DNA from: a bacterium
GTDB lineage: Bacteria; Joyebacterota; Joyebacteria; Joyebacterales; Joyebacteraceae
DNA: 41,824 nucleotides
Reading direction: 5' to 3'
Assembly: GCA_025774245.1 (NCBI GenBank)
Contig: JALGWI010000022.1
Coordinates: 1 to 41,824, forward strand
A program made the position numbers and the translations under genes. Each line of letters starts with the position of its first letter. The stretch's first letter is position 1. Positions 24,034-38,764 of the stretch are shown here, piece by piece. Under the pieces are notes generated by a model. That model did not search any database. It was not told the origin of the DNA and saw nothing but the letters and a program-made list of their open reading frames with translations.

Positions 24034-26472
24034 TCACCTCATCAGGATCATCTTCATTTCAAAGTGCGCGCTCCCTGCCATCATCCTGGCGAAGTAGACG
24101 CTCGAGGCCGCGTCGCGGCCGGCGGCGTCCTTTCCGTCCCAGTGCACCGACGAGCGGCCGGCAGGAAGTTCCTCATCGATCAGTACGTCGACCACCCTCC
24201 CGCTCACGTCGTAGACCGTGATCGAGACGCGCCGCGTCTCGGCCAGGCTGAACGCGAGGGTCGTGAGGGGGCCGAACGGATTCGGGTAGTTCGCATAGAG
24301 CGCGGTCACACCGTGGATCTCATCGTCGGAGACGCCGGTGACCCCGTGGCCGACGACGATGCTCCCGCCGTACGGAACGGTGTTGTGGGCGGTGACCGTG
24401 ATCGTCGCCTCGACGTCGTCGGGAACGTCCACCACGAACGTGGCCCCTCCCGCGGCGTCGGTCGTGCCTACCTCGTAGATCTCCCATCCCTCGGTCGACA
24501 GGCAGACGGTCGCGCCGGCAACCGGACTCCCTCCGGCCCGCACCATCACCTCAATCGCAGCCGGCCCGTCGGCAAGATCGACGGCGTCCGGGTGGAACAC
24601 CGAGAGCCGCTGCGGGCGATCGGTCCAGATGGGCATCTCGGGATCACCGAGGAGGTTCAGCTCGTACATCGCGTAGCGCATGTAGTCGTCGGACCTCGAG
24701 AGCCCGACGTAGTGGTGCTTCGCGTCGGCGTGCACCATCCCCGCGTGCACCAGATCCTTCGCGAAGAGCGAGTTGGCGAACTGCTGGCTGTAGAGATCGG
24801 AGACACACTGGCCGGGATAGCCGGGGCAACCCCAGCCGTACCTCGAGTTCCCGACGTAGGCGACGCCGCCGCCGTCGGGGTTCGTGATCCAGTGCTCGCC
24901 GAACGTGTCGTGGTCGAGCGCCGCCGACCAGCAGCCCACCGAGTACCACAGGCCGCCCCGGGCGCCGTTCGTGAGGCCGTCGAGCACCGGAGCCGCGATG
25001 TCGTCCGGACCGATGCTGACGTAGTAGATGCTCGCGTGCCCCTCGTGCATGACGAGGTTCACGCCCTCTTCCAGCGCAGCGACCGCGGCCGAGAGAGATA
25101 GCGTCCCGTCGCGCTCGTAGAGCTTGGTGATCGGGTCGAAGCGGCTCGGAACGAAGTCGGCGTCGACCATGTCGAGCGCCATGCCGCCGTCCGTGTACGG
25201 ATCGGGCGAGTCCCAGAGGACCTCGCCCAGGAAGAGCATCCGAAGCTGATAGTCATCGAAGACGTTGAGCGCGGCTCCCTCGTACGCGAGGACCTTCGCC
25301 ACGAACGCGGCCACGTCGGCCTCGCTCGTCACGGGAGCGCGCCCGACGAACACGTCCGAGTACATGTCGACCGTGTCGTCGTCGCGCTCACCCCAGCGTC
25401 CGTCGCCGTCCGCGTCCCACGTCCCCTCGAGGTCGGCGAAATAGAGGTCACAGGGGATGCCCTGCTCGTAGAAGAAGTCGTGGGCGTCCCGCGTCGGCAC
25501 AACCTCGGTGTCGCCGCCCAGGAGAACCCAGGTGATGCCGTGCTCCATGTAGTGATGGCGTATGCAATTCCTAACCTCCTCCGCCGCGTCGACGCCGTCG
25601 AAGGAGGGATCGTCCGCAATCGACTCGAGCGTGACGATCTCGGTCCGGACCCCCTTCCGCACCTTCCAGTCCACGAGCGGCTGGAACGCGTCGCTGAACG
25701 ACTCGGGGCAAACGATCAGGTAATCGAACTCGTCGACGTCCCTCGGCGGCCGCGCCGCGGCGGCCTCCTCGATCTGCCGGGCGCCCCGCGGATTCAGAAC
25801 CGATCGCGCCACCACCTTCGCGGCGTGCCGGGAAGGCCCGCGGCCTCCGCGCGAAGCCACGTCGACGGCCTCGCCGGCCGGGTCGGTCCTGACTACGATC
25901 TCTATGTCGGTGTGAAGAACGAGCTCGCCCGTCGCCGGCGTGTACTGGAGCGGCGACACTACGACGGTCGCGATGCGGTGTCCGGCAAACAGCCCGACCC
26001 CGGCCAGCCGAGCGACCTTGCTCGGGAATGGCAGCACCGAATTGTAGATTCGTTCATTCGGCTGGGGAACTTCTGCTGCCCCTCGAGAGGAGTATGTGGC
26101 TGGCCAAGGTGCGGGCAGTATGGTGTAGCGGCCCGGGAGGTAGACGGTCCCACGCGGATGAGCCGTCACGTCCGACGGCGTCGCCCCGGGTGGAAGCAGG
26201 AGCTGGATGCTGAGCGCGGGGAGCATCGGTTCCGCTGGCTCGGTCAGGTGATCGGCGCCCTCGAGAGACACGAGGTCGAAACCCTCATGCCGTTCGAAGA
26301 CGAGATCGCTTGGGTCGAAAGCCAGGGTAGCGACCACCTCGTCGGCAGTGGCGGCCGCAGCAGGGAGAGCAGGAAAGGTTAGTACGAACAGCAGGAGTCC
26401 GACCCACCAACGAGGACGCCGGGTCACCCCGACCCCCGTAGCGAGGAAACCGCCGAGGCCGCTCCCCACCAT
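24034..26472 (-). CDS. Gingipain-type C25 cysteine peptidase with FlgD-like sorting domain
   Basis: A secreted cysteine peptidase. The signal peptide is TRRPRWWVGLLLFVLTFPAL followed by PAAAA. A propeptide-like beta region (about 30-220) leads to the C25 catalytic domain: DEFDYLIVCPESF, ITWVLLGGDTEVVPTRD, the catalytic His in NLVMHEGHASIYY and Cys in LWYSVGCWSAALD. Then come Ig-like segments and a C-terminal FlgD-like domain beginning ALYANYPNPFGPLTTLAFSL and ending FEMKMILMR, the sorting style of FCB bacteria. The start is uncertain: the ATG at 26472 is used (812 aa), but a GTG at 26427 just before TRRPRWW would give a classic signal peptide. The leader has a promoter and an attenuator-like hairpin. 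Confidence 0.88.
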   Translation of the reverse strand: MVGSGLGGFLATGVGVTRRPRWWVGLLLFVLTFPALPAAAATADEVVATLAFDPSDLVFERHEGFDLVSLEGADHLTEPAEPMLPALSIQLLLPPGATPSDVTAHPRGTVYLPGRYTILPAPWPATYSSRGAAEVPQPNERIYNSVLPFPSKVARLAGVGLFAGHRIATVVVSPLQYTPATGELVLHTDIEIVVRTDPAGEAVDVASRGGRGPSRHAAKVVARSVLNPRGARQIEEAAAARPPRDVDEFDYLIVCPESFSDAFQPLVDWKVRKGVRTEIVTLESIADDPSFDGVDAAEEVRNCIRHHYMEHGITWVLLGGDTEVVPTRDAHDFFYEQGIPCDLYFADLEGTWDADGDGRWGERDDDTVDMYSDVFVGRAPVTSEADVAAFVAKVLAYEGAALNVFDDYQLRMLFLGEVLWDSPDPYTDGGMALDMVDADFVPSRFDPITKLYERDGTLSLSAAVAALEEGVNLVMHEGHASIYYVSIGPDDIAAPVLDGLTNGARGGLWYSVGCWSAALDHDTFGEHWITNPDGGGVAYVGNSRYGWGCPGYPGQCVSDLYSQQFANSLFAKDLVHAGMVHADAKHHYVGLSRSDDYMRYAMYELNLLGDPEMPIWTDRPQRLSVFHPDAVDLADGPAAIEVMVRAGGSPVAGATVCLSTEGWEIYEVGTTDAAGGATFVVDVPDDVEATITVTAHNTVPYGGSIVVGHGVTGVSDDEIHGVTALYANYPNPFGPLTTLAFSLAETRRVSITVYDVSGRVVDVLIDEELPAGRSSVHWDGKDAAGRDAASSVYFARMMAGSAHFEMKMILMR

Positions 26473-26515
26473 CCAGCTCCATCCGGTTGCGCAGGATCCA
26501 TCCACCCCAAACAAA

Positions 26516-26552
26516 ATAGGCCCTCGATTCCGGCGTACGGTCGAAGGCCTAT
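26516..26552 (-). terminator. Terminator/attenuator in the C25 peptidase leader
   Basis: On the minus strand ATAGGCC-T-TCGA pairs with TCGA-G-GGCCTAT (T.G wobble in the middle), with a further CCG/CGG above, then TTTTGTTT. It is a textbook intrinsic terminator. It sits about 15 bases after the predicted start of the peptidase transcript and about 40 bases before its coding region, so the transcript must pass through it. Confidence 0.65.
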
Positions 26553-26573
26553 GTGATCCCCAGCACACCTCTT

Positions 26574-32761: not shown

Positions 32762-32803
32762 GGCCAGCAAACGAGGGAAGGCCTTGAAACAGGGGGGATT
32801 ACA

Positions 32804-34438
32804 GTGAGACAGAAGCTCATGATCGTGCTGGCGATCGTCGCGCTCCTGGGAGTGATCGCGGGGTGCTCGGAGCAGCGCCTCGCCGCGCTCGAGCGCCAGT
32901 TCGAAGGTATCACGGCGATCGAGGATCCGGCCGAACGATCTGCTGCGGCCCTCGCGTTCGCCGTTGAGAATGCCACGGGGCCCGAGGAGCTCGAGGATCT
33001 GATCGACCGAGCCGTCGACACCGCGGTGGCATCGGCGGAGGAGGCGGGTGGGTCGGAGGCGGGCTTCGAGGTCTGGGAGGCGCTCTACGCTGCCGAGGCC
33101 ACGCCGGACCGCCACTACAGCGTCATGATCCGGTACGACCACGCGCTCCTCGAGACCGGCGAGCCCGACAGGATCGCCCGGGCGGAGGAGCTCGCGCACG
33201 ACCTCCTGGTCGCCGACGACGCCCCGGAGACGCCATACGTCTTGATGACGTACTTCCACTCGTCGAGCGATCTCACCGACAAGGAGCTCGTCGTCGACGT
33301 CGCTTCCGCGGGGTATGCGAACGCCCGGCCTGAAGACGCCGACGGGTGGGCGCCGGTGCTCGACCGGGCGTACGGCGCGTACATCGGTGAGATGTCCGCA
33401 ACCGATGGGCTCGACGTCGCCCTCGAGAACACGCAGGCGCTCGCGGCCGGAGCCGACGACGCGCTCGTCGCCGGCGTGCTGAGAGCGAACATCTACCGCC
33501 TCGCGATCGAAGACAGCCCCGGCACGGCGCTGGCCGCGGCCAGCGCCATCGCGGCGTCCGAGGACTTCGACAGCTGGCAGATCCTGAACGACCTCGCGTA
33601 CGACATGGCCGACAGGGACATTGCGCCCGACCTGGCGATCGAGCTCGCCGGGCGGGCGATCGCGCTGGCCCCCTCCCGTTATGACTCCGCGATGGTCTTC
33701 GACACGGTGGGCTGGGCGACGTTCCGGGCCGGCGACTCCGATAAGGCTGCGGACTACCTCGAGCAGGCGGTCTCGCTCCTCGAGGAGACGCCGAGCTTCG
33801 ACAACGTGCTCGTCCAGCATCTGGTTGAGGTCTATCGCTCGGGAGGCATGGACGACCGGGCGATCGATTTCCTCGCGGTCATTGTCGCGCGCTCCGTCGA
33901 CACCGACGACCCGGCGCGCGCGCTCCTGGCGAGGATGCTCACCACCCGCGACGGCAGCGCCGCCGCGCTGGACGACCTTGTGGCCGAACGACGGTACGAG
34001 GGAGTCATCGCGGCCCCGGCTTTCGCGCTCCCGAACCGCGCTGGCGAGACCGTCACGCTCGCCGACCTCAAGGGAGACGTGCTGCTCGTCGCCTTCTGGG
34101 GATACACCTGAGGACCCTGCCGCGCGGAGTTGCCGCGCCTGGTCGAACTCTACGATCGGTTCGAGACCATGGGCGTCCAGTTCGTCTCGATCGACGCCGG
34201 ACAGCGGACACCCGCCGCCGAGGAGTTCCTCGACGAGAACAACGTCCGCCACATCGTCCTGAACGACGCCGACCGGAGCGTCCGGGAGGCGTACAAGATC
34301 ACCGGGATCCCGGTGACCGTCCTCATCGACCACGAGGGCAGGATCATCTATCGCCACCTCGGTTACGCCCCCGGGGATGAGGTGAAGATGGCAAAGGAGA
34401 TCGAGACCCTGATCGCCTGGAAGGGGCAGGAGGCCTGA
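32804..34438 (+). CDS. TPR-TlpA lipoprotein, selenocysteine-containing (UGA at 34109-34111)
   Basis: Probably a periplasm-facing thiol/disulfide oxidoreductase anchored by lipid. Starts GTG 32804 after GGGGGG. The signal ends in the lipobox IAGC (Cys21). Residues about 25-400 are helical with TPR-like pairs (TVGWATFRAGDSDKAADYLE). From about 405 comes a TlpA-like thioredoxin domain: FALPNRAGETVTLADL, then VLLVAFWGYT, an in-frame TGA (codon 436), GPCRAELPRLVELYDRFE, VQFVSIDAG, YKITGIPVTVLIDHEGRI. TGA falls exactly on the first Cys of the usual WCGPC motif, giving UGPC. The frame continues for 108 codons of conserved domain to a TGA at 34436. A SECIS-like hairpin follows the UGA. Reading it as two genes would split a domain through its active site. 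Total 544 aa. Confidence 0.9.
34112..34144 (+). promoter_or_regulatory. Bacterial SECIS-like hairpin
   Basis: Directly after the UGA, GCGCGG (34122-34127) and CCGCGC (34133-34138) form a 6-bp stem capped by AGUUG; a lower GACC/GGTC helix (34113-34116 with 34141-34144) encloses it. The loop GU lies about 18 bases after the UGA, within the distance bacterial SelB elements use. Confidence 0.7.
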
Positions 34439-34575: not shown

Positions 34576-37500
34576 CTACTGCACCGTCACGAGCACTCTC
34601 ACCACGCCCGTTCCGGACTCGAGCGACTCGAGCGCCTTTCCGAGGATGGTGCCGGGCCGGGGATCGCCGTCGCGCATGGCGTGCCCGGGGATGCTCGAGG
34701 TCACGAGGAGATCGCCGGGCTGGATCGGCCCGTTCTCGCACGAGACCTTGCACGGCACGACGCCAACGACCGCGACCGGGATCTCGTCCCGCCCCTCGGC
34801 CGGGTTGCTCCAGTCCCTCTCGGAACCGACGAACCCGGGCTTCGTGCTGTAGATGCCGGCAACGAGCGTCGAGCGAGGCTTGCTCGACTTCGTCATCTGG
34901 CGCGTGCCGCTGACGTCGATCACCATGACGTCACCCGGCTCCACCGACGCCGGGCCCGACCTCACCGCGAACATCTCGGCGAAGTCCGCACCGCCGCCCG
35001 TGAAGGCGCCGTCGGCCGTCACGTTGCCGTCGCCCCAGACCCGGAAGACCGGGTCGGACCCGCGGGCGCACTCGACGAAGTAGAGGGTGTCTGCCGCCGA
35101 CCCGCCGGTCACCAGCTCGAGCACCGTCTGGTTGCCGACCACGTCCTGCGTCGTGGAGATCGACGCGATCGTGCCGGTCGTGAACGAGTTGGCGGTGACG
35201 TTCACGGCGCCGCCCGTCGCCGTGGTGGCGACATCGAGCGCGACTCCGGGAGAAGCGGTACCCACGCCGACGTTGCCCGTGGTGTAGGAGATGTCGGAGC
35301 CACTCTGCGACCAGTACTGGCTCGTGAGGTAGCCGCCGAGACTGTGGTCCCCCCATCCGAACGCGTCGTTCCAGTTCGTGATGTCGCCGGCAACGATGCC
35401 TGCCGCAGGGTCGCCCGAGTAGACGGGATCGGTCTCGCTCTGGAGGGCGCTGTCCAGTTTCGCCTTATCGCCGGCCACCAACAGACTCGCCTCAGAGGCT
35501 GAGAAGACCGGGTCGGTCTCGGCCCCCGCAGGCAGGTTCGTCAGGGCGCTGCCGTCGCCGGCGAACGCCGTGGCCGTCACCGTGCCCGACACCTCGAGCT
35601 TCGTGGTCGGGGTGGTCGTGCCGATTCCGACGCTCCCGGCAACCGCCGAGTACATGCCGCTCCCGGAGACGGTCCAGTCGCCGTCTGCTGGGATGGGCTG
35701 CCACGTTCCGACGCCGTCGATGTCGGTCTGGAGGAAGTACCCGTCCGTCACCCCGCTCGTGAGCCTCAGTACGTTCGCCCTGAGCGTCCCGTTGACGTCG
35801 AGCTTGTTCTGCGGGGCGCCGGTCGTGCCGATACCGAGGTTTCCGCCGATCCACACCATGTTCGGCGTGTAGAGGCCGTACTTCTCGCCGAAGAAGTCGA
35901 AGAACGCGAGAGAAGCCCAGACGCTCGCGTCCTCGTTCGCTCCGAGGACCGCGCCCGTCCGGTTGAGGTCGAACTCGGTGTAGGCGGCGATACCAAACGT
36001 GAACGGGTCGCCCCACTCGTTGTACGCGGTGATGGCGTTGTTCGTCTGGCCGTAGTTGTAGTTGCTGCCGCCGTTGTAGGTGCTCCGATCGCGATACGCG
36101 TGCAGCGCCGCGCGTCCGTCCTCATCCGAGTTCGTCTCGTTGAGGTAGGCGTCGATGATCCTCCCATTGACGCCCGACACGGACAGGAGGCCTGACGGAA
36201 TGGTCACCGTCCCGCCGCTCTCGTAGACGCCCGAGTCCTCGAGCGTCGTCGCGTCCGCGAACCTCGGGAGGTAGGTGGCCGTTCCGGAGCCGCCGACACC
36301 CGAGTCCGCCGCGTCGATCGTGATCGTGTTGCCGACGTCGTCGGGCGTGATCGTGATGTTCGTGCCCGCGATGAGGTCGATGTCCCCGCCGTCGTTCACG
36401 ACGCCGTCCACGCTCGAGACGAGGTCAGGCAGGATCATGTCCAGCGTAACCGCGTCGGGCTCCGCCTCGTTCACGAAGCGCGAATCGTAGCTCTGGCCCG
36501 AGATGTACGGGCCGGTGAGCTGCACCGCGTCCGTGACGATCTCGAGACCCGTGCCCGTGTTGACGAAGAGCGTGTCCGGCCCGACCGTGATGCCCGCGCC
36601 TTCCGCGACTGCCAGATCGACGTCGCCGGAATCGCCGCCACCCAGGAGGCCGTCGTTCGCGTTCACCGCCGTGATGTCGCCACCGGCGGCCACATCGAAC
36701 GTGATGGTGTCGCCGATGTCGTCGGGCGTGATCGTGATGTTCGTGCCCGCGACGAGCGCGATGTCGCCGCCGTCGTTCGCCACGCCGCTCACGCTCGAGA
36801 CGATGTCGGGTACGGTCATGTCGGCCGTCACCGCGTCGGCCTGGCCCTCGTTGACGAAGGCCGCGTCGTACGCGCTGCCGTCGAGGTAGGAGGCCGCGAG
36901 GCCGAGGGTATCGTTGGCCGCGTCGAGCCCGGGACCGACGTTGACGTCGAGAACGACGTCGCCAGCGGTGCCGCCGCCTGCGAGCGCCACGCCCGCCTCG
37001 ACCCCCGTGATGTCGCCGCTCCCTCCGCCTGCCACGTCGAACGTGATGGTGTTGCCGACGTCGTCGGGCGTGATCGTGATGTTCGTGCCAGCGATCAGGT
37101 CGACGTCTCCGCCGTCGTTGGCCACGCCGTCGACGCTGGAGACGATGTCGGGTACGGTCATGTCGGCCGTCACCGCGTCGGCCTGGCCCTCATTGACGAA
37201 GGCCGCGTCGTACGCGCTGCCGTCGAGGTAGGCCGCCGCGAGGCCGAGGGTGTCGTTGGCCGCGTCGAGACCCGGTCCGACGTTGACGTCGAGGACCACG
37301 TCCCCGGAGTCGCCGCCGCCGGCGAGCGCCACGCCCGCCTCGACGCCCGTGATGTCACCGCTGCCACTGCCGCCCGCCTGCCAGCTGGCGAGACCGTCGG
37401 CGTCCGAGGTCAGGACGTAGCCGTCCGCGGCGCCGATCGGGAAGAGGAAGCCCTCGACCCGCACCGTGTCAGCGACGTCGAGCGCGTGCGTCGGCGTGTC

Positions 37501-37953
37501 GGTGCCGATTCCGGCGTTCCCGGAGAGGCGGTAGATGTCCCCTCCTGAGATCTCCCAGTCGATGTCCGCACCGACGTCCGCGTAGGCAGCGCGGAACGCG
37601 TACGGGGCCGTCGTCAACTCGGTCCGCGGCGTCAGCTCGTCGCCTCCGTCGACCGATATCCCGAGCCAGTACGGAACATTGAACTGAAGGAACATCGGGG
37701 TGACTTCACCGAGGAGCACGTCGAAGATGCCGTCGGCCACGGGGATCACCTGCGCCTCGCCCCAGAGGGGAACGCCTCCCGTGTCGACGTCGTAGATCTG
37801 GAACGTGAGGACGTAGGTGCCGTCCGCAACCGGGCTGCCTGCTCCGTCGAGCAGAACGCCCTGGTAGTTCATCTTCTCAGGAATGGCCGCCGACCCCTGC
37901 TGGATCATCACGACCAGCGCGAGCAGCGTGCAAAGGACAAGCGTCCGTCTCAT
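34576..37953 (-). CDS. Large repeat-rich exported surface protein
   Basis: A 1125-aa secreted protein with a signal peptide (MRRTLVLCTLLALVVMIQQG). The N-terminal domain IPEKMNYQGVLLDGAGSPVA is common in repeat-rich exported proteins of uncultured FCB bacteria. Two near-identical tandem repeats of 114 residues (about 198-311 and 312-425) and a divergent third follow, each with AGTNITITPDD. Tail-fibre-like segments (GNAGIGTDTPTHALDV, GNLGIGTTGAPQNKLDVNG) recur; in other proteins GIGT..P...LDV repeats form trimeric beta structures. A conserved C-terminal domain (DFAEMFAV, EPGDVMVIDVSGTRQMTK, GDLLVTSSIPGHAM) may be a chaperone or assembly domain. The ATG at 37953 follows AAGGAGG. It is probably an adhesin or surface fibre; no enzyme motif is seen. 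Confidence 0.75.
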   Translation of the reverse strand: MRRTLVLCTLLALVVMIQQGSAAIPEKMNYQGVLLDGAGSPVADGTYVLTFQIYDVDTGGVPLWGEAQVIPVADGIFDVLLGEVTPMFLQFNVPYWLGISVDGGDELTPRTELTTAPYAFRAAYADVGADIDWEISGGDIYRLSGNAGIGTDTPTHALDVADTVRVEGFLFPIGAADGYVLTSDADGLASWQAGGSGSGDITGVEAGVALAGGGDSGDVVLDVNVGPGLDAANDTLGLAAAYLDGSAYDAAFVNEGQADAVTADMTVPDIVSSVDGVANDGGDVDLIAGTNITITPDDVGNTITFDVAGGGSGDITGVEAGVALAGGGTAGDVVLDVNVGPGLDAANDTLGLAASYLDGSAYDAAFVNEGQADAVTADMTVPDIVSSVSGVANDGGDIALVAGTNITITPDDIGDTITFDVAAGGDITAVNANDGLLGGGDSGDVDLAVAEGAGITVGPDTLFVNTGTGLEIVTDAVQLTGPYISGQSYDSRFVNEAEPDAVTLDMILPDLVSSVDGVVNDGGDIDLIAGTNITITPDDVGNTITIDAADSGVGGSGTATYLPRFADATTLEDSGVYESGGTVTIPSGLLSVSGVNGRIIDAYLNETNSDEDGRAALHAYRDRSTYNGGSNYNYGQTNNAITAYNEWGDPFTFGIAAYTEFDLNRTGAVLGANEDASVWASLAFFDFFGEKYGLYTPNMVWIGGNLGIGTTGAPQNKLDVNGTLRANVLRLTSGVTDGYFLQTDIDGVGTWQPIPADGDWTVSGSGMYSAVAGSVGIGTTTPTTKLEVSGTVTATAFAGDGSALTNLPAGAETDPVFSASEASLLVAGDKAKLDSALQSETDPVYSGDPAAGIVAGDITNWNDAFGWGDHSLGGYLTSQYWSQSGSDISYTTGNVGVGTASPGVALDVATTATGGAVNVTANSFTTGTIASISTTQDVVGNQTVLELVTGGSAADTLYFVECARGSDPVFRVWGDGNVTADGAFTGGGADFAEMFAVRSGPASVEPGDVMVIDVSGTRQMTKSSKPRSTLVAGIYSTKPGFVGSERDWSNPAEGRDEIPVAVVGVVPCKVSCENGPIQPGDLLVTSSIPGHAMRDGDPRPGTILGKALESLESGTGVVRVLVTVQ
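36285..36678 (-). repeat. Divergent third copy of the surface-protein repeat
   Basis: It shares DITAVNANDGLLGGGDSGDV and the closing AGTNITITPDDVGNTITI with the two copies upstream, but its middle part has diverged. Confidence 0.6.
36679..37020 (-). repeat. Tandem repeat copy 2 (114 codons)
   Basis: Same length as copy 1 and differing at only a handful of residues, for example GGGTAGDVV for GGGDSGDVV and DIALVAGT for DVDLIAGT. DNA identity is also high, so it is a recent duplication. Confidence 0.85.
37021..37362 (-). repeat. Tandem repeat copy 1 (114 codons)
   Basis: It begins SGDITGVEAGVALAGGG and ends NTITFDVAGGG, directly joined to copy 2. Confidence 0.85.
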
Positions 37954-38082
37954 CTCCCAACCTCCTTCTCTGCTCTCCAGACTCCCTGTTCCGACTCGGG
38001 ACCACGGCACACGCCCGCGGCTTTTCCGCGCTCGACACCGGTCCCCCACCGGGACCGATCGCGGTTCCGAGTACCGATCCTC

Positions 38083-38610
38083 TTACTTGAGCAGCACCAT
38101 CTTGCGGGTGTCCACGAAACTGCCCGACACCATGCGGCAGAAGTAGACTCCGCTCGAGAGCCCCGAGGCCTCGACGACGGTCCTGTGGTATCCGGCCTCC
38201 ATGCGCTCGTCGACGAGCGTTCTCACCTCTCGTCCCGCAGCGTCGTAGAGCTTCATCGTCACGCGCGCGGGCTCAGGCAGTCCGAACTGAATCGTCGTGA
38301 CCGGATTGAAAGGATTCGGGTGGTTCTGCCCCAGCCAGTGGTTCGCAGGGAGCAGATCACTCTCGTCCTCGATCCCGGTCAGGATCCAGCCCGGTCGGTA
38401 CCAGAAGCCAATCTGGTTGATGTTCGAAGGACCGCTCACGACACCGATCGCGGCCTGACCAACCGTGCCCATGACGATGTTGTTCGCGCCGGTCATCTCA
38501 CCGCCGCCGCTTCCTATCACGCTGTACGGGATCACGTACTGCGCCGCCACCGTGGCGGGAAGAAGCAGAGCGACGACGGCGATCACCGCAGCCAGGATTC
38601 CCAGCCTCAT
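38083..38610 (-). CDS. Secreted protein with FlgD-like C-terminal sorting domain
   Basis: A 175-aa protein made of a signal peptide (MRLGILAAVIAVVALLLPAT), a short conserved head (YSVIGSGGGEMTGANNIVMG, TVGQAAIG, NINQIGFWYRPGW) and a C-terminal FlgD-like domain (HPNPFNPVTTIQFGLPEPA, LYDAAGREVRTLVDE, GVYFCRMVSGSFVDTRKMVL). This head-plus-tail layout is repeated many times in genomes of uncultured FCB phyla; function unknown. The ATG at 38610 follows AAGGAGGG. The repeat-rich surface protein follows after 129 bases on the same strand, so both may be exported together. Confidence 0.8.
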   Translation of the reverse strand: MRLGILAAVIAVVALLLPATVAAQYVIPYSVIGSGGGEMTGANNIVMGTVGQAAIGVVSGPSNINQIGFWYRPGWILTGIEDESDLLPANHWLGQNHPNPFNPVTTIQFGLPEPARVTMKLYDAAGREVRTLVDERMEAGYHRTVVEASGLSSGVYFCRMVSGSFVDTRKMVLLK

Positions 38611-38764
38611 TGGTCCCTCCTTCAATGAACGGGTTCGCACGAGATGCCACGCGCGCTTGTGCACAGATCGAGCGCACACCTCGCCGCCCCCCGATCGACT
38701 CTCGCTAGTCTCCAACTCCTCAAAGTATGTACTTGCGTCAAGAGCATGTCGCTCTGATCACCCT

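Follow-up and report, generated by a model that had tools for sequence, protein, structure and literature searches.

Results

A UGA codon at the active site of a TPR-TlpA protein

The 41,824-nt stretch of DNA analyzed here (the window; contig JALGWI010000022.1, GCA_025774245.1) comes from a metagenome bin of 128 contigs with 3.2% contamination, assigned to Joyebacterota. It carries a gene for a protein with an N-terminal membrane anchor, a tetratricopeptide repeat (TPR)-type arm and a C-terminal TlpA-like domain, and we conclude, with a probability of roughly 0.96, that this gene encodes a selenoprotein in which UGA codon 436 is read as selenocysteine (Sec). The codon is an in-frame TGA at 34109-34111, followed by 108 further codons (437-544) before the stop. 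It lies in the motif FWGYT-U-GPCR, where U436 is aligned with the first Cys of CxxC and takes the place of the first Cys of CGPC, and Pfam matches to Redoxin (3.9e-21), AhpC-TSA (8.7e-21) and Thioredoxin_8 (2.2e-11) span it (residues 403-529). The original prediction, which had placed an in-frame TGA on the first Cys of a CGPC motif with 108 codons beyond, is thus borne out by the sequence and by domain matches that cross the TGA. When TGA is treated as a stop, the open reading frame (ORF) listing gives a 435-aa ORF and then a 102-aa ORF from TTG 34130; standard annotation would truncate the gene at its TGA.

If Sec occupies this position, homologues are expected to carry Cys there. The family was surveyed in 20 genomes of the candidate phylum, and 16 of them hold the gene, in 18 copies with ~32-61% identity to the window protein. 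Twelve copies, from 11 genomes and 7 genera, have TGA as codon 436; the other six, from genera g3 and g4, have TGC or TGT. The in-frame UGA is thus aligned with the Cys of its homologues, as the original prediction had anticipated. Because 12 of 18 copies share the exact column and the other six have TGC/TGT there, the TGA is not a chance occurrence. No other in-frame TGA is found in any copy, and the assemblies carrying the family derive from several separate sequencing projects. The part beyond the TGA is under purifying selection as strong as that on the upstream part: the ratio of nonsynonymous to synonymous rates (dN/dS) is 0.13-0.32 in closer pairs and, with few exceptions among these, does not exceed that of the upstream part.

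Sec and Cys forms coexist inside one genus, and the gene tree, with its inner g4 branches unresolved, requires at least four Sec/Cys changes. In one Cys ortholog (L024, G005:C186) CGAS replaces CGAC, a loss of the resolving Cys that may point to a monothiol mechanism or to decay. A GTDB-wide pattern scan, of a kind that mainly catches close relatives, recovered full-length relatives in the candidate-phylum lineage only; the viral contigs searched held no relatives of the protein, and phage records held ordinary TlpA domains only.

A covarying SECIS hairpin follows the UGA

Further evidence, not named in the original prediction, comes from a putative bacterial selenocysteine insertion sequence (SECIS). 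All 12 Sec copies carry, starting 13 nt past the U of the UGA, a stem of six base pairs capped by a loop of 5 nt (AGUUG or AGUUU). Every one of the 72 stem cells forms a standard pair (100%), and three of the six pairs are changed on both sides. None of 500 shuffled controls reached the observed covariation score or percentage paired, and slid controls also failed. With the proteins held fixed and codons redrawn by family usage, 44.5 +/- 3.7 pairs were obtained, with a maximum of 57 in 5000 draws, versus the 72 observed. The covariation crosses codon logic: an Arg codon, CGC or CGT, is matched by the second base of an Arg, His or Tyr codon, and the other pairings are Thr ACG/Tyr TAC, Val GTG/Pro CCA and Ala GCG/Pro CCG. 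The loop itself is maintained by rare codons, TTG serving for 7/7 Leu and TTT for 5/5 Phe, versus family usages of 2.9% of Leu and 7.8% of Phe codons.

The published bacterial SECIS model has a loop of 3-9 nt, a stem of 4-16 bp, a G within the first two loop positions, a distance of 16-37 nt from the UGA and a minimum free energy <= -7.5 kcal/mol (PMC13188914). The hairpin of the Sec copies falls within all of these limits, with a loop of 5 nt (3 nt with A-U closing), a stem of 6-7 bp, G at loop position 2 (or 1), a spacing of 16-17 nt and, for the hairpin alone, -7.9 to -10.5 kcal/mol. A lower helix is not consistently conserved, RNAalifold adding just three pairs near the UGA, and Rfam gave nothing above threshold over the locus.

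Of the six Cys copies, two from g4 retain an intact stem. The stem is weakened in the other four: two of them and L031 show a single mismatch, and little of it is left in L030. This pattern fits recent Sec-to-Cys changes that would have left a remnant SECIS, as described in other families (PMC1794560). The orthologs, which occupy one genomic place and have Sec or Cys within one genus, form a clean natural series on Sec retention versus loss, in which the fading of SECIS remnants in Cys forms can also be followed.

The source genome encodes the Sec machinery

Sec insertion is expected to require dedicated machinery, and the original prediction had called for a search for selA, selB, selD and tRNA-Sec. 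All four were found in the source genome: two tRNA-Sec genes with anticodon UCA, and SelB (350 bits), SelA (535 bits) and SelD (368 bits), each scoring above its curated cut-off (242, 268 and 125, respectively). Among the 20 genomes, tRNA-Sec exceeds 68 bits in 19 (G017 has a doubtful 50.6-bit match only), SelA is detected in 17, and SelB is complete or nearly so in 11, that of G007 being split across two contig ends; the remaining genomes, mostly fragmented assemblies, yielded no full-length SelB.

SelD of the source genome has an in-frame TGA at its own catalytic position (CSGUASK, in CSGUASKLGPEDL), and a GGTCC-GGA-GGACC-type hairpin accompanies the SelD TGA in all 19 phylum genomes with a readable SelD motif. 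With its own hairpin downstream, SelD appears to be a second selenoprotein of the source genome. UxxK SelD selenoproteins are already known (PMC9312934). This one serves as a positive control for Sec decoding in the same genome, the enzyme being unrelated to the TPR-TlpA protein, and the uncultured lineage would decode UGA as Sec in SelD as well. The selD gene occurs in an identical arrangement on two contigs (L001, 412-1455, + strand; L002, - strand, around 2630), followed on both by tRNA-Sec and a gene for an MnmA/ThiI-like sulfurtransferase. Contigs C97 (4.6 kb), C30 and C23 of the source bin (G000) bear two diverged selD/tRNA-Sec copies together with another SelB fragment (on C23, 87% identity), which suggests that the bin includes contigs of a second, related organism.

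Table 1 Features of the TPR-TlpA selenoprotein locus in the window.
Feature	Position	Strand	Details
TPR-TlpA selenoprotein gene	32804..34438	+	544 codons; GTG start 32804-32806; TGA stop 34436-34438; UGA436 = predicted Sec
Shine-Dalgarno-like AGGGGGG	32791..32797	+	6 nt upstream of the GTG start; read from sequence
N-terminal hydrophobic signal, residues 1-21	32804..32866	+	lipobox VIAGC, predicted lipidated Cys21; sequence read by eye
Helical TPR-like superhelix, residues ~25-395	32876..33988	+	AlphaFold2 pLDDT 91-95, all helical; Foldseek; TPR_2/TPR_12 in relatives
ResA/TlpA-like thioredoxin-fold domain, residues 403-541	34010..34426	+	Pfam; NCBIfam ResA subfamily model, 90 bits; Foldseek 1st9/1su9
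UGA codon, predicted Sec436, residue 1 of UGPC redox motif	34109..34111	+	TGA in 12 orthologs, TGC/TGT in 6
Cys439, resolving cysteine of UGPC	34118..34120	+	read from sequence
Predicted bacterial SECIS hairpin	34122..34138	+	stem GCGCGG (34122-34127)/CCGCGC (34133-34138); loop AGUUG (34128-34132)

Protein architecture

An AlphaFold2 model built with 17 orthologs (predicted local distance difference test, pLDDT, 91) has ~20 helices followed by a thioredoxin fold, and the arm modelled alone reaches a pLDDT of 95. The C-terminal domain matches ResA (1st9/1su9) with Foldseek TM-scores of 0.91-0.93 over the domain and combines the thioredoxin fold, an AhpC/TSA-Redoxin signature and a redox motif at a helix N-terminus.

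The original prediction described a lipoprotein with a long TPR-like region, and each part of this description needs some adjustment. By eye, the window protein has a lipobox, and a Cys at the lipobox place is also present in the other copies of its own genus (g1) and in one g7 ortholog, but the remaining members lack it and have an uncleaved transmembrane-like helix instead. The feature common to the family therefore appears to be membrane tethering, by lipobox or by transmembrane helix. As for the arm, the window protein on its own gives a weak sequence signal, a TPR_12 match that does not reach the cut-off (E 2.7e-4), but TPR_2 is found in 9/16 and TPR_12 in 8/16 family members, and the predicted fold agrees: Foldseek matches are TPR superhelices (E ~1e-4), the top one being LbcA (7rqf), a TPR lipoprotein-type adaptor, and the top four including 8gl8_I, a chain of the SprE-containing type 9 secretion translocon. 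The model supports the TPR repeat class; because TM-scores are modest (0.3-0.5), it does not support an exact curvature.

Genomic neighbourhood

Copies with readable flanks occupy one conserved place across genera, next to a divergently oriented Endonuclease V gene, and on contigs that reach far enough a HAD-ACPS-YjeF-M20-ThiL block is also conserved nearby. The second copy in one genome (L171 in G008) is an exception. One bin (G018) contains both a Cys and a Sec form (L021/L094 and L049/L099). These were considered as paralogs and rejected as such; because each copy has an Endonuclease V gene as its neighbour (L094, L099), the bin is probably a mixture of two strains or species.

Next to the selenoprotein gene, on the - strand (34576-38049), the window encodes a 1157-residue protein of repeated SGDITGVEAG-like units with no Pfam match; at the equivalent place in another genome (G001, L165 1451-7957) a second, tandem copy of this repeat protein is present. 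The window also encodes a C25 (gingipain-like) peptidase (24034-26568, -) and a protein with a Por_Secre_tail sorting domain (38083-38715, -), which may be read as signs of type 9 secretion cargo in the lineage.

Discussion

Proposed mechanism

Taken together, the Cys homologues, the Sec machinery and the covarying hairpin uphold the selenoprotein reading of the original prediction, and Sec insertion at codon 436 is, by computation, predicted with near certainty. We propose that the ribosome would read UGA436 as Sec, the SECIS hairpin, with its apical loop 16 nt downstream, recruiting SelB with Sec-tRNA(Sec). The product would then be exported and tethered to the membrane by its N-terminus, through a lipid on Cys21 in its own genus and a transmembrane helix in most relatives, so that a ~370-residue TPR superhelix would carry a C-terminal ResA/TlpA-type domain with Sec (UGPC) as its nucleophile. 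In the most likely course of the reaction, client proteins held by the arm would have their disulfides, or related oxidised thiols, attacked by Sec436, and Cys439 would resolve the mixed selenenylsulfide. The pair might be re-reduced by a membrane protein of the CcdA/DsbD type or by some other thiol donor in the periplasm. A DsbD_TM/CcdA-type homolog is encoded in the source genome; as a redox partner it is a guess, because CcdA/DsbD is found in just 12 of the 20 genomes and not adjacent to the TPR-TlpA gene.

We hold this explanation as a whole, SECIS-directed insertion into a tethered TPR-ResA/TlpA enzyme with a Sec nucleophile, to be highly probable. That the protein acts as a tethered thiol-disulfide oxidoreductase is probable, and chances are about even that the arm binds clients, where it might also hold a partner. 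The original prediction went on to suggest a surface-anchored reductase; the membrane anchor and the ResA-like fold agree with this in part, but a place on the outer surface rather than in the periplasm is here conjectural, as is the direction in which the redox reaction runs.

Several observations weigh against the proposal. The fold energy of the hairpin in a single sequence is unexceptional at this GC richness (z = -0.94). Single-sequence folding energy was accordingly rejected as SECIS evidence, being uninformative at this GC content, and because fold energy alone is not unusual, the case for the SECIS rests on covariation and codon choice. The covariation statistics are themselves drawn from related, non-independent sequences. 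Four genomes with the TGA form (G002, G016, G018 and G019) yielded no full SelB, their assemblies being fragmented. The gene has no operon partner and stands alone next to Endonuclease V, and the limited distribution of CcdA/DsbD noted above counts on the same side.

Alternative explanations

The bare observation of an in-frame TGA with a functional continuation would also be expected if TGA had been reassigned, or if read-through placed a different amino acid such as Trp or Cys there, with no selenium involved. TGA terminates ordinary genes of the window (the C25 peptidase, HAD, Endonuclease V and glutamate synthase genes) as well as the TPR-TlpA gene itself; the genetic code is therefore standard, and genome-wide reassignment was rejected. 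Within the gene, TGA is found only at the redox Cys, in a genome with full Sec machinery and a covarying SECIS, which makes non-Sec decoding very improbable. The TGA could also be a real stop in a pseudogene or split gene, with the TlpA part dead or translated separately from TTG 34130, and the 435-aa and 102-aa ORFs would be consistent with this. The separate ORF would nevertheless miss the catalytic motif and the first strand, the Cys orthologs are uninterrupted, and a single TGA at one active-site codon in 12 copies from 7 genera, with no other disruptions and with purifying selection downstream, leaves next to no room for such a stop. A sequencing or assembly error might be suspected in a window from a metagenome bin of this contig number and contamination. 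Since the identical TGA recurs in independent assemblies from several projects, and the downstream hairpin is conserved only where the TGA is present or recently lost, we regard an error as a negligible prospect.

Other alternatives accept the selenoprotein and differ on its function. The enzyme could instead work as a peroxidase, or as an oxidase or isomerase of disulfides, the TPR region being just a structural spacer or a complex-assembly module. Redoxin and AhpC-TSA score equally well in Pfam, Sec favours peroxide chemistry, and adaptor lipoproteins (LbcA) and the type 9 translocon chain are among the nearest TPR folds. The motif, however, is WxxTUxPC, of the ResA/TlpA type rather than the peroxiredoxin TxxC/U, and ResA/TlpA/DsbE come first in fold and profile matches; we consider this alternative unlikely, if worth keeping in view. 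A further idea is that UGA436 is a selenium-responsive switch between two products: the full TPR-TlpA enzyme with selenium and, without it, a stable 435-residue membrane-anchored TPR-only adaptor with a role of its own, in a lineage-specific periplasmic redox system. Such a system may serve cysteine-containing secreted proteins, since a C25 peptidase and a sorting tail of the type 9 kind are both encoded in the window. We regard the switch as a long shot.

Comparison with known systems

A Sec-containing redoxin domain is already known and is not new in itself. According to reviews, UxxC selenoproteins occur in PF00578, PF08534 and PF13905 (PMC9312934, PMC13188914). Among these, the Prx (peroxiredoxin)-like thiol:disulfide oxidoreductases (PF00578, UxxC/UxxU) and the 'Redoxin family protein' group (PF08534, UxxC) share with the window protein the domain family, Sec as the first residue of UxxC and the existence of Cys relatives (PMC9312934, PMC13188914). 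In contrast, no TPR-type arm of ~370 residues is described for either group, and the TPR-TlpA group is found in one candidate phylum only. The window motif WGYTUGPC is of the UxxC type and does not show the TxxC/TxxU of peroxiredoxins. An ordinary form without the TPR arm was also seen in an unrelated phylum (L174, G050:C245), where a short TlpA-like protein that stands alone and has TGA in place of the first Cys (FWATWUPSCREE) is probably another Sec redoxin.

The tethered oxidoreductases ResA/TlpA/DsbE(CcmG) (PRK03147; 1st9, 1jfu) share the fold, the CxxC position, the cis-Pro segment GIPVT and the membrane anchor, whereas the window protein has Sec for Cys and the TPR arm. Its scores fall short of the named subfamilies (ResA model NF002854, 90 bits versus a cut-off of 170; TlpA model NF047696, 61 versus 230), and by these profiles the domain appears related to them without being a member. 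ResA-like WAxxUGC selenoproteins (NF041054; 'UGC-containing TlpA', PMC13188914) likewise have Sec in a ResA/TlpA domain, but their motif is UGC rather than UGPC, and the window protein scores 58 bits versus a cut-off of 300.

A TPR-Sec-TlpA fusion was not found in the literature and databases searched, nor was any paper on selenocysteine in 'Eisenbacteria'. The suggestion of the original prediction that this is an undescribed selenoprotein architecture is in keeping with that search: Sec UxxC redoxins are known, and it is their fusion to a TPR arm, restricted to the candidate-phylum lineage, that appears undescribed. The protein would thus add to the known selenoproteins an architecture of membrane anchor, TPR superhelix and Sec-ResA domain that is conserved across the candidate phylum.
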